Positions 50,477 through 53,999 of a stretch of DNA of 64,000 nt are shown one piece after another; position 1 is the first letter of the stretch; each line of letters opens with the position of its first letter. The DNA is from an uncultured Clostridiaceae bacterium (GTDB taxonomy: Bacteria > Bacillota > Clostridia > TANB77 > CAG-465): NCBI GenBank assembly GCA_947169155.1, contig CAMVON010000001.1, positions 1-64,000 on the forward strand, read 5' to 3'. The position numbers and the translations under genes were made by a program. The notes under the pieces are model-generated. The model searched no databases. It was given only the letters and a program-made list of their open reading frames with translations, and was not told the origin of the DNA.

Positions 50477-51361
50477 ATGATAAGTGGAAAATATATTGAT
50501 TTACACGTTCATACTAACTATTCTGATGGATTCGACTCTATTAAAGAGGTACTAAGAAAAGCTAAAGAAAATAATGTTGGATATATATCACTTGTTGAAC
50601 ATTATAATGTATCTTCATATAGTGAAGCATGCCAACTAGCAGGAGATGATATTGTAGTAATACCAGGAATTGAACTTGGTGCAGATATGTCTAAATATTT
50701 CGTCCCAGGACAAAATAATAAACATGTTTGTCACTTACTTGGTTACTATATATCTAAAGACATATGTAAGCTATTAGATAAGTACGAACTCGACAGATAT
50801 GAATGTGTTACAAAGACAATTAGTTTATTAAATAGTCAAGGAATAAAAATTGACTTAGCAGATGTTATAGCAAATGCAAGAGATAAAAAATCTATTGGAC
50901 GTTTTGATATTGCTCTTACTCTTAAAGCATTGGGCTATAGTAAAACAGCAACTCAGGCTTATGGTGAATACCTAGATCATAATGGTAAAAGTTATGTACA
51001 AAGGAAGAAACTTGAACCTGAAGAATTAGTTCGAGCTATTCGAAAATATGGTGGGGTACCAGTACTTGCACATCCTAAGAGTCTAAGACTTCCTAAAGAA
51101 GAATTAGATGTTTTTATTGAAAAGCTGGTAAAAGCAGGTTTATGTGGAATTGAGGTGTATAATCCTAATAACTCAGAAGCCAAACGAAAAGAGCTTTTAG
51201 AGTATTGTGAAAAATATGACCTTATACCTACTTGTGGAAGCGATTACCATGGTGGTAATAGAAAACCTATAATTGAAATAGGTAAAGGTATTAATAATAA
51301 CCTTTTAGTAGATGATAAGTCAATTATTAAAAGACTAGAACGCAAAAGAAAAGAACTTTAG
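50477..51361 (+). CDS. PHP domain phosphoesterase
   Basis: A 294-residue protein of the polymerase-and-histidinol-phosphatase superfamily. Its metal-site motifs occur in order: DLHVHTNYSDG (~9), LVEHYN (~40), PGIELG (~62), VLAHPKS (~195) and CGSDYHGG (~255). The layout resembles RNase AM (YciV/TrpH), a 5'-3' exoribonuclease/nucleotidase, so phosphate ester hydrolysis is likely; the substrate is not certain. ATG at 50477 is 10 nt after AAGGAG; the GTG at 50468 is too close to it. Confidence 0.82.
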   Translation: MISGKYIDLHVHTNYSDGFDSIKEVLRKAKENNVGYISLVEHYNVSSYSEACQLAGDDIVVIPGIELGADMSKYFVPGQNNKHVCHLLGYYISKDICKLLDKYELDRYECVTKTISLLNSQGIKIDLADVIANARDKKSIGRFDIALTLKALGYSKTATQAYGEYLDHNGKSYVQRKKLEPEELVRAIRKYGGVPVLAHPKSLRLPKEELDVFIEKLVKAGLCGIEVYNPNNSEAKRKELLEYCEKYDLIPTCGSDYHGGNRKPIIEIGKGINNNLLVDDKSIIKRLERKRKEL

Positions 51362-51392
51362 AGAGAACTCATGTATGTGGGTTCTTTCTTTT
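51362..51392 (+). terminator. Probable terminator
   Basis: An imperfect stem (51362-51370 with ~51379-51387, G-U pairs) followed by a T-rich run. Confidence 0.6.
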
Positions 51393-51458: not shown

Positions 51459-51487
51459 TTGATTTTACAATATCATTAGTATATAAT
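51459..51487 (+). promoter_or_regulatory. SigA-type promoter of the Mur ligase-arginase unit
   Basis: TTGATT (51459-51464), 17-bp spacer, TATAAT (51482-51487). Confidence 0.75.
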
Positions 51488-51512: not shown

Positions 51513-53039
51513 ATGAATAAATTCAGTTTAAAAGAGTATATTGAGTTACTTGAAAATGAAGGTTTGCTTGTTAAAACAGAAGGTTGTGAAGATGTTTTAG
51601 AACGTGAAGTAAATCTTTTATCTTATAATTCCAAAGAAGTAGAAGAAGATACATTATTTGTTGTTAAAGGTGTTTCTTTTAAAGAAGAGTATCTTAAAGA
51701 GGCATTAGACAATGGTGTATTTGCATATATTAGTGAAAATAAATTTGATGTTAATTGCCCATGCATATTAGTTACAGATATTCGTAGAGCTCTATCTTGT
51801 ACTGCAGCAATGTACTTTAATTATCCAGGTGAGGTATTAAATGTAATTGGTGTTGGTGGTACAAAAGGTAAATCTACTACAACATATTATATTAAATCTA
51901 TTTTAGATGAATATTCTAAAGCAAATGATAAAAAAGAAACTGCTGTTATTTCATCTATTGATACATATGATGGAGTAGAGTGTTTTGAATCACATATTAC
52001 AACTCCAGAATCATATGATATTCATAGACATTTTTATAATGCATTAAACAGTGGAATGGAAAATCTAGTTATGGAAGTATCATCTCAAGCTTTAAAAATT
52101 GAAAGAGTACCAGATGTCTTTTTTGATATTGGTATATTTATGAACATTAGTGAAGACCATATTAGTCCAATTGAACATCCAAATTTTCAAGACTATTATG
52201 AATCAAAACTAAAAATGTTTAAAAATACAAAAAATGCTATAGTAAATATGGATGCAGATTTAGCGTCTAATACTTTAGCTGTTGCTAGACGTGATAGTGC
52301 AAGAGTATTTACATTCTCAATGAAGAGTAAAGACACAGACTTTTATGCATACGATATTAGAAAAGATGGTTTCAATACTATATTTAAAGTACATACTCCA
52401 TCTTATGATGAGGAATTTATGCTAACAATGCCTGGACTATTTAACGTGGAAAATGCACTTGCAGCTATTGCTACAGCTTGGATTATGAATGTGCCAGTAG
52501 AATATGTAAAACATGGCTTAGAAATTGCAAGAAGTAGTGGTCGTATGGAAGTTTTCCATACTAAAGATATGAAAATAATTATCTTAGTAGATTATGCACA
52601 CAATAAACTAAGTTTTGAAAAATTATTCTCTTCTACTAAAGAGGAATATCCAGATAGACGTATAGTTGCAATCTTTGGATGTCCTGGTAAAAAAGCGTTA
52701 CTTAGACGTAAAGATTTAGGAACAATTGCAGGACAAAATTCAGACTTTGTATATATTGTTGCAGAAGATCCAGGTGCAGAGCCTGTAATAGATATATCTA
52801 ATGACATTGCACAATATGTTAAACAATATACTTCAAATTATGCCTTAATTGAAGAAAGAGGAGAAGCAATAGAGGATGCTGTTCTTAAAGCAGAAAAAGA
52901 GGATAAACCTACTATTATTCTTCTTACAGGTAAAGGTAGAGAAACAAGACAAAAATATGGTACAGAATATTTACCATGTATTTCAGATGTAGAATATACT
53001 GAAAAATTCCTTGCAGAATATGACGCAAGACATGAATAA
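51513..53039 (+). CDS. murE: MurE-type UDP-MurNAc-tripeptide ligase, atypical specificity motif
   Basis: A 508-residue three-domain Mur ligase. The N-terminal UDP-binding domain spans ~1-105. The ATPase domain has GVGGTKGKSTTT (~113), the TTPES substrate segment and MEVSSQALK. The C-terminal domain has DYAHNK and GCPGKKALLRR. The position where DAP-adding enzymes have DNPR and Lys-adding ones have DNPA reads AEDPGAEP here, so the third residue added is not predictable and may be neither. LLTGKGRET near the C-terminus is usual for MurE. AGGAGAG precedes the ATG. Arginase follows after 24 bp. Confidence 0.85.
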   Translation: MNKFSLKEYIELLENEGLLVKTEGCEDVLEREVNLLSYNSKEVEEDTLFVVKGVSFKEEYLKEALDNGVFAYISENKFDVNCPCILVTDIRRALSCTAAMYFNYPGEVLNVIGVGGTKGKSTTTYYIKSILDEYSKANDKKETAVISSIDTYDGVECFESHITTPESYDIHRHFYNALNSGMENLVMEVSSQALKIERVPDVFFDIGIFMNISEDHISPIEHPNFQDYYESKLKMFKNTKNAIVNMDADLASNTLAVARRDSARVFTFSMKSKDTDFYAYDIRKDGFNTIFKVHTPSYDEEFMLTMPGLFNVENALAAIATAWIMNVPVEYVKHGLEIARSSGRMEVFHTKDMKIIILVDYAHNKLSFEKLFSSTKEEYPDRRIVAIFGCPGKKALLRRKDLGTIAGQNSDFVYIVAEDPGAEPVIDISNDIAQYVKQYTSNYALIEERGEAIEDAVLKAEKEDKPTIILLTGKGRETRQKYGTEYLPCISDVEYTEKFLAEYDARHE

Positions 53040-53063
53040 AATTAGAAAGAGGAAGATAAAAAA

Positions 53064-53945
53064 ATGAGAAATATAGATATAATTAATGCAAACACTGATT
53101 TAGGTGTGCATGTAGATGGAGCAAGACTTGGCCCAGATAAATTAACAGAGGATTTAATAATTAAAAATAATATTCGTGGAATATATAAAATATATGCAAA
53201 CGAAGAAAATAAAGAAAATAAACCTGAAGATAAAGATAATAAGAAAAAGAATTTAGAACAAATTAATGTTTTTAATAAGCAAGTATATGATACTGTTAAA
53301 AATACAATTGAAAGAGGTAATTTTCCTGTAACTCTTGGAGGAGATCATAGTCTAGTAATAGGATCAGCACTAGCCTCAATTGCTAAAAATAAAAATATGG
53401 GGATTATATGGATAGATGCCCATGGAGATTATAATACTTTTGATACTACAATTACAGGAAATATACATGGATTACCTCTTGCAGCAATTGATGGATACGA
53501 AAAAAATTATTTAACAGATTTTCATGATGGTACTTTTTATAAACCAGAAAATACTGTAATTGTTGGTGGAAGAGATATAGATCCACTTGAAATTGAAAAT
53601 ATAAAAGATGCAGGTGTTACGGTATTTTCTACTGAGGAAATACACAAAAGAGGAATGAGTGCTGTAATGGAAGATGCAATAGCAATTGCAACAAATGGAA
53701 CAGAAGGAATGCATATAAGCTACGATTTAGATGTAATTGACCCTAAGATTTGCCCGGGTGTTTCAGTTCCAGCAGTAGATGGAATTAATCTAGATGAAGC
53801 ATATGAAGCAGTAGATTCAATTATTAAGCATAAAGCAAAACTTAAATCTTTAGATATAGTTGAATATAATCCAGAACGTGATATAGATAACAAAACTAAA
53901 AATATAGCTAAGACTATACTTGAGAGTATTATTAACAATATATAA
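53064..53945 (+). CDS. rocF: Arginase family ureohydrolase
   Basis: A 293-residue arginase. The binuclear Mn site appears as GGDHSLV (~97), WIDAHGDYNTF (~118) and SYDLDVIDP (~222). The arginine-contacting loop is TGNIHGLPLA (~133), characteristic of arginases rather than agmatinases. VPAVDGINLDEA follows. A Lys/Glu/Asn-rich insert (~47-66) is unusual. It hydrolyses arginine to ornithine and urea. GAAAGAGG precedes the ATG. It shares the transcript of the Mur ligase, with a terminator after it. Confidence 0.9.
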   Translation: MRNIDIINANTDLGVHVDGARLGPDKLTEDLIIKNNIRGIYKIYANEENKENKPEDKDNKKKNLEQINVFNKQVYDTVKNTIERGNFPVTLGGDHSLVIGSALASIAKNKNMGIIWIDAHGDYNTFDTTITGNIHGLPLAAIDGYEKNYLTDFHDGTFYKPENTVIVGGRDIDPLEIENIKDAGVTVFSTEEIHKRGMSAVMEDAIAIATNGTEGMHISYDLDVIDPKICPGVSVPAVDGINLDEAYEAVDSIIKHKAKLKSLDIVEYNPERDIDNKTKNIAKTILESIINNI

Positions 53946-53968: not shown

Positions 53969-53999
53969 AAAAGACTCGGTTTAATCCGAGTCTTTTAAT
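53969..53999. terminator. Bidirectional terminator
   Basis: An 11-bp perfect stem (53969-53979 with 53986-53996), A-run before and T-run after, between the convergent arginase and Lon-like genes. Confidence 0.9.

Follow-up and report, generated by a model that had tools for sequence, protein, structure and literature searches.

MurE2 compared with described MurE ligases

In MurE ligases that add diaminopimelate (DAP), the arginine that ends the DNPR motif binds the second carboxylate of this substrate (PMC3829189). In the MurE of Staphylococcus aureus, which adds L-lysine (L-Lys), the epsilon-amine of the substrate is held by Asp406 and Glu460, and the enzyme uses L-ornithine (L-Orn) 400-fold less well than L-Lys (PMC3829189). 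Lactic acid bacteria place L-Lys, DAP or L-Orn at position 3, the last in L. fermentum, and their ATP-grasp D-aspartate ligase AslA is encoded with racD (PMC4155827). Here we analyzed a window of 64,000 nucleotides from an uncultured, gut-type Clostridiaceae bacterium (contig CAMVON010000001.1, positions 1 to 64,000), in which an open reading frame for a MurE-type ligase, MurE2 (51513-53039, 508 aa), is followed after 24 bp by one for an arginase (53064-53945, 293 aa). Both, like all window features given below, lie on the + strand. We consider it reasonably likely that the two form an ornithine-adding MurE module, and it is highly probable that MurE2 adds a basic diamino acid of some kind, whether Orn or Lys.

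MurE2 is predicted, from profile, structure and tree, to be an L-ornithine- (or L-lysine-) adding UDP-MurNAc-tripeptide synthetase. It scored 301.6 bits on the TIGR01085 murE model (cut-off 257.3), placing it in the MurE family, and fell under the cut-offs of all DAP- and Lys-specific equivalog models, including NF010628 (343.9 against 536). Its AlphaFold model (pLDDT 93.5, pTM 0.91) matched the MurE structures 2XJA, 4BUB, 1E8C and 4C13 in Foldseek. Alignment to MurE located the ATP-binding P-loop GTKGKS (51858-51875), DYAH, and SKLKMF (52203-52220) with K232 at the carbamylated-lysine position, invariant in 22 relatives. The first-pass annotation had seen AEDPGAEP at the stretch where DNPR is expected, and this holds: DNPR is replaced by E418-D419-P420-G421 (52764-52775), which aligns to D413-N414-P415-R416 of Escherichia coli MurE and is kept in 15/15 of the closest relatives. 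MurE2 therefore does not have the motif of a DAP ligase. The DAP-carboxylate-binding arginine has become Gly421 and the second-position asparagine an aspartate, and the loss of the arginine fits the placement of MurE2 among Lys/Orn-type ligases. A further acidic residue, E477 in GKGRE (52929-52943), aligns to Glu468 of E. coli MurE, the second of the two acidic residues that bind the side-chain amine; the role of the equivalent residue is taken from PMC3829189. MurE2 variants with serine, alanine or tyrosine in place of the motif proline (EEDSGEE, EEDAGEE, EEDYGEE) were seen at L113, L114, L117, L118, L121-L126, L132, L135 and L139, and in G001 (L077:2000-3554) MurE2 is split over two frames, by a frameshift or an assembly error.

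MurE2 is like the S. aureus enzyme (4C12/4C13; NF010628) in its fold, P-loop, carbamylated-lysine position, lack of arginine at motif position 4 and two acidic residues at the side-chain-amine site. It differs in having Glu, not Asp, as the first motif residue, in sequence (~22% identity), in adjoining an arginase gene and in coexisting with a DNPR MurE. With DAP-adding MurE (E. coli 1E8C and the genome's own enzyme at C2:83864-85237) it shares the overall fold and reaction type, but it has EDPG instead of DNPR and stands on the opposite side of the tree.

That tree held 68 proteins, 51 of its rows being the non-DNPR group. The non-DNPR MurEs formed one side of a branch (SH-aLRT 100), with all DNPR MurEs on the other. 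The MurE2 side includes the MurE of Bifidobacterium thermophilum, Vagococcus fessus, Atopococcus tabaci, an Enterococcus and Weissella hellenica, each being the sole full-length MurE match in its genome. All of these organisms have walls of the lysine or ornithine type. By its position in the tree, MurE2 is a member of the Lys/Orn-type MurE clade, and the caution in the first-pass annotation that EDPG could mark another MurE clade was correct. The MurE of B. thermophilum, whose wall is of the ornithine type, belongs to the same non-DNPR clade and also has Glu as the first motif residue (EEDTNTE). Unlike MurE2, it is the only full MurE match in its genome and lies beside a D-Asp/D-Glu-ligase-like ATP-grasp gene, and a search of that genome found no ureohydrolase, in contrast to the window genome.

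In Sellimonas, Claveliimonas, Mordavella, Clostridium aminobutyricum and others, MurE2 comes directly after genes for an ATP-grasp protein and an Asp/Glu racemase. The racemase is supported by TIGR00035 (200.2 vs 93.1 bits), and the ATP-grasp protein matches no curated family. Homologues of the latter flank MurE in Vagococcus, Atopococcus and B. thermophilum, in each of which no other MurE was found, whereas none was detected in the two DNPR-only Lachnospiraceae, Lachnoclostridium phytofermentans and Lacrimispora, or in Weissella. Because AslA is encoded with racD and these homologues flank lone MurEs, we infer that the ATP-grasp protein is related to AslA. The arrangement in these other Clostridia is like the AslA/RacD cross-bridge pair of lactic acid bacteria. 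It also bears on whether MurE2 could be a Mur-like ligase acting outside peptidoglycan, such as a cyanophycin-like or natural-product enzyme using arginine or ornithine. MurE-like domains do occur in cyanophycin synthetase (weak matches), and the MurE2 of the window's family lies outside any cell-wall gene cluster. Such a role is nevertheless improbable, given that MurE2 has the complete architecture of MurE and scores far higher as MurE, that its relatives in the clade are the sole MurE detected in the organisms that carry them, and that in other Clostridia it is linked to ATP-grasp, racemase and DNPR murE genes.

The arginase and its linkage to MurE2

Profile and sequence matches identified the product of 53064-53945 as an arginase, which converts L-arginine to L-ornithine and urea. 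The nearest model was TIGR01229, with 208.5 bits, just below the equivalog cut-off of 227.6, and the nearest proteins were the Bacillus arginases 6NBK and 1CEV (E ~1e-51). Alignment to Bacillus arginases showed that GGDHS, the signature DAHGDYNTFDTTITGNIHG (metal ligands and arginine-binding loop; 53415-53471), RDIDPLE (53571-53591) and SYDLDVIDP are all kept. RDIDPLE is the D-x-D-P-x-E stretch, which binds the alpha-amino group in arginases. The protein carries the metal-binding motifs as well as the arginine-binding residues of D-x-D-P-x-E and N...T..GN-HG, in which it is like the Bacillus caldovelox arginase 1CEV, and by these motifs it is a true-type arginase. It differs in its partner, which is a Mur ligase instead of a catabolic arginine operon.

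The first-pass annotation had suggested looking for the pair in relatives, where it recurs. Matches to PF00491 were present in 22/36 family genomes, and in 22/22 of these one match lay beside MurE2. The neighbor was a window-type arginase downstream in 15, an agmatinase-like enzyme downstream in 3 and an agmatinase-like enzyme upstream in 4; the agmatinase-like neighbor is ~23% identical to the window arginase. Additional ureohydrolase copies lie away from MurE2 in nine genomes. The order-mate G048 has the arginase type beside MurE2 in convergent orientation. Beyond the order, an arginase gene separates MurE2 from a DNPR murE in Sellimonas, and an Oscillospiraceae operon (L122, 3798-9349) encodes MurE2 with the motif EEDSGEE, AsnB, a D-aspartate-ligase-like ATP-grasp protein and arginase, all in one direction. 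The use of two unrelated ureohydrolase types, in either gene order, argues for a role shared with MurE2. That the adjacency is due to chance or hitch-hiking between genes of unrelated roles is hardly credible: several sister genomes do have MurE2 and no ureohydrolase, but this explanation has to contend with both types, both orders, the convergent order-mate and the further linkage in Sellimonas and Oscillospiraceae.

Within the window, MurE2 and the arginase gene look like a separate two-gene transcription unit, judging by two terminator-like hairpins. One (51360-51389) closes the upstream PHP gene, and the other (53969-53996) is common to the pair and the convergent downstream gene for a Lon-type protease. 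The single transcript and 24-bp spacing described in the first-pass annotation agree with this layout. A promoter-like site, TTGATT-17-TATAAT (51459-51487), precedes MurE2 as a consensus match only, the count of such sites in the region being not above chance in shuffles. No riboswitch or leader, such as a lysine riboswitch, rose above Rfam thresholds near MurE2 in the window or in 20 relatives.

The first motif residue follows the ureohydrolase. Among 38 ligases, it was Glu in 23/23 that adjoin a ureohydrolase and Asp in 14/15 that lack such a neighbor (Fisher p = 1.6e-9 if the ligases are counted as independent). Since DDPA, DDPG and DDPQ all occur in sister ligases without ureohydrolase, the informative residue is Glu and not the whole of EDPG. 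Compared with Asp, Glu has one methylene more, and ornithine has one fewer than lysine, which would give the association a simple physical reading. Glu418 may mark a preference for Orn over Lys, as it tracks the ureohydrolase (23/23 vs 1/15), albeit through few independent changes. In one genome, G031, two MurE2 copies (C2:10356-11825 and C3:37157-38647), a Glu-type and an Asp-type, occur without any ureohydrolase. Bifidobacterium genomes have both residues, some with tandem Glu and Asp copies, which is consistent with such a rule and is not a test of it. In the B. thermophilum genus, known for mixed Orn/Lys walls, MurE occurs in tandem in L271 and L272 (G100 and G088), with an ED motif in one copy and a DD motif in the other.

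Another possible explanation is that MurE2 adds L-lysine, like the sisters with the Asp motif, that Glu arose by neutral drift and that the arginase serves arginine catabolism or polyamines. The small number of E/D changes would be in line with this, lysine is very likely the substrate of the Asp-type sisters that lack a ureohydrolase, and the selectivity of S. aureus MurE depends much on pool size (PMC3829189). We think it unlikely, in view of the ureohydrolase of either type and in either order beside MurE2 in every carrying family genome, and of the ornithine-related genes considered in the following section.

Canonical MurE and the supply of DAP and ornithine

The genome encodes seven Mur-ligase-type proteins: MurC, MurD, a DNPR MurE, two MurF-type proteins, FolC and MurE2. 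The canonical DNPR MurE (C2:83864-85237) lies in the dcw cluster, adjoining mraY, and scored 576 bits on a DAP-ligase model (cut-off 373). MurE2 together with a canonical, lower-scoring MurE was found in 36/36 family genomes; in G033, the canonical gene (L064:5819-7361) is split over two frames, through a frameshift or an assembly error. The two MurF-type ligases, at C3 (L002:952-2529) and C10 (L004:562-1917), one of which has N-terminal membrane-like segments and lies beside ddl, possibly reflect two parallel precursor lines. The first-pass annotation had proposed an ornithine-type wall and named a separate canonical murE performing this step as grounds for refuting it. That objection is partly borne out by the DNPR gene; the membership of the Lys/Orn clade, the arginase linkage and the association of Glu with ureohydrolase support the proposal in part. 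The DNPR MurE leaves ornithine as the sole position-3 residue unproven, and that reading was rejected. The objection is softened by the lack of DapB throughout the genus and of a DapF match in the own genome, with which the DNPR enzyme would depend on salvaged DAP.

The presence of two MurE and two MurF-type proteins per genome could also mean that MurE2 is a second ligase for DAP or a related diamino acid, or that its product serves mainly to recycle salvaged wall peptides, and DAP, if used, does appear to be salvaged. We regard this as very improbable, with Gly421 in place of the DAP-carboxylate arginine, Asp in place of the second-position Asn, and the DNPR enzymes all on the other side of the tree.

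A check for DAP pathway genes, also suggested in the first-pass annotation, found DapA in the own genome, encoded by a stand-alone true dapA (C1:334646-335506; L342:10646-11506) without detectable dapB or dapF. DapB was present in 8/54 order genomes and 0/28 genomes of the genus, and queries with order-mate DapB also gave no match in the own genome, nor was there a match for DapF. A fold-III decarboxylase resembles LysA, below the cut-off. The genes found therefore do not amount to synthesis of DAP by the organism itself, and its genus appears to lack this ability. DapB is common to all known DAP routes and, because it is absent, DAP for the DNPR MurE, if used, is probably obtained by salvage. 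The absence is not specific to MurE2 carriers, as many order-mates whose sole MurE is of the DNPR type likewise lack dapB.

E. coli queries for argB, argC, argG, argH, argI, argD, proC, speC and cadA gave no match in 99.6% of the own assembly, although the genome is 96% complete and remote homologues could escape such queries. Since no arg, proC, speC or cadA homologue was detected, the arginase is the only ornithine source found, and MurE2 appears to be the clearest ornithine user. The lack of a detected ornithine carbamoyltransferase, ornithine aminotransferase, ProC or SpeC/CadA-type decarboxylase speaks against MurE2 being a lysine ligase beside a catabolic arginase, and a separate agmatinase-like gene (C4:134532) is available for polyamines. 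This second ureohydrolase lies in a cluster (C4:134532-138482; L389:14532-18482) together with a fold-III pyridoxal phosphate (PLP) decarboxylase, nearest to TIGR03099 and LysA and below both cut-offs, and with PLP aminotransferase, radical-SAM-like and threonine-synthase-like genes.

Several observations weigh against MurE2 and the arginase forming an ornithine-adding module. Every family member also has a canonical DNPR MurE, the agmatinase-like neighbors may have a product other than ornithine, and the fold-III decarboxylase at C4:137274 could use ornithine as well. The tree needs ~5 residue changes and 4 gene changes, and the association of Glu with ureohydrolase is not significant once relatedness is corrected for; of 3 independent pairs on well-supported branches, 2 agree and 1 is uninformative. 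The Glu ligase G031a, without a ureohydrolase, is the one exception among the 38, and an Atopobium MurE has Glu though Atopobium is listed as A4-alpha, lysine type (PMC11382707). Neither the D-aspartate ligase (ATP-grasp) nor the racemase was found in the own genome or the family, so the window genome and its family have no A4-type wall cassette and, unlike AslA/RacD systems, carry FemX instead (own gene C9:11909-12961; Weissella FemX, E 8e-65), as expected of a branched (A3-type) wall. FemX is also present in order-mates with only a DNPR MurE and is therefore permissive rather than specific evidence. The order-mate G048 has the ATP-grasp gene and no FemAB.

A proposed route and its implications

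The analysis establishes the gene identities, the clade of MurE2, the gene linkage, the association of Glu or Asp with ureohydrolase and the absence of dapB; we infer the amino acid used by MurE2, its share in the wall and its regulation. In the proposed route, the arginase would hydrolyze imported L-arginine to L-ornithine. Glu418, whose side chain extends about one methylene beyond that of the Asp in lysine ligases, would together with Glu477 hold the amine of the shorter ornithine side chain, and FemX, encoded elsewhere in the genome, could then attach a bridge residue to the delta-amine left free. The canonical DNPR MurE would be active whenever salvage supplies DAP, and in sister species that lack a ureohydrolase the Asp form of MurE2 would take lysine. 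The ornithine route probably operates alongside a salvage-dependent MurE of the DAP type, and the best reading of MurE2 is as a route to a wall precursor independent of DAP synthesis. More tentatively, and with some doubt, this family of uncultured Clostridia may combine a salvage-dependent DAP ligase with a MurE2 that has switched between lysine (Asp) and ornithine (Glu, with arginase or a recruited agmatinase-like enzyme). If this is true, a one-carbon change in the enzyme matches a one-carbon change in the substrate, and wall building is independent of DAP synthesis.

The literature that was searched contained no earlier report of a MurE-arginase pair, in which a Mur ligase would have its own supply enzyme in an organism with two MurEs. 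To our knowledge, the rule by which MurE picks ornithine over lysine has not been settled so far. In this family, Asp/Glu pairs occur naturally together with a matching supply gene, so that a single residue would suffice to test the rule. The chemistry of position 3 sets cross-linking, susceptibility to hydrolases and host sensing by NOD1 (DAP) or only NOD2. A DNPR murE by itself is no proof of a DAP wall, and widespread gut Clostridia may have mixed or switchable walls.
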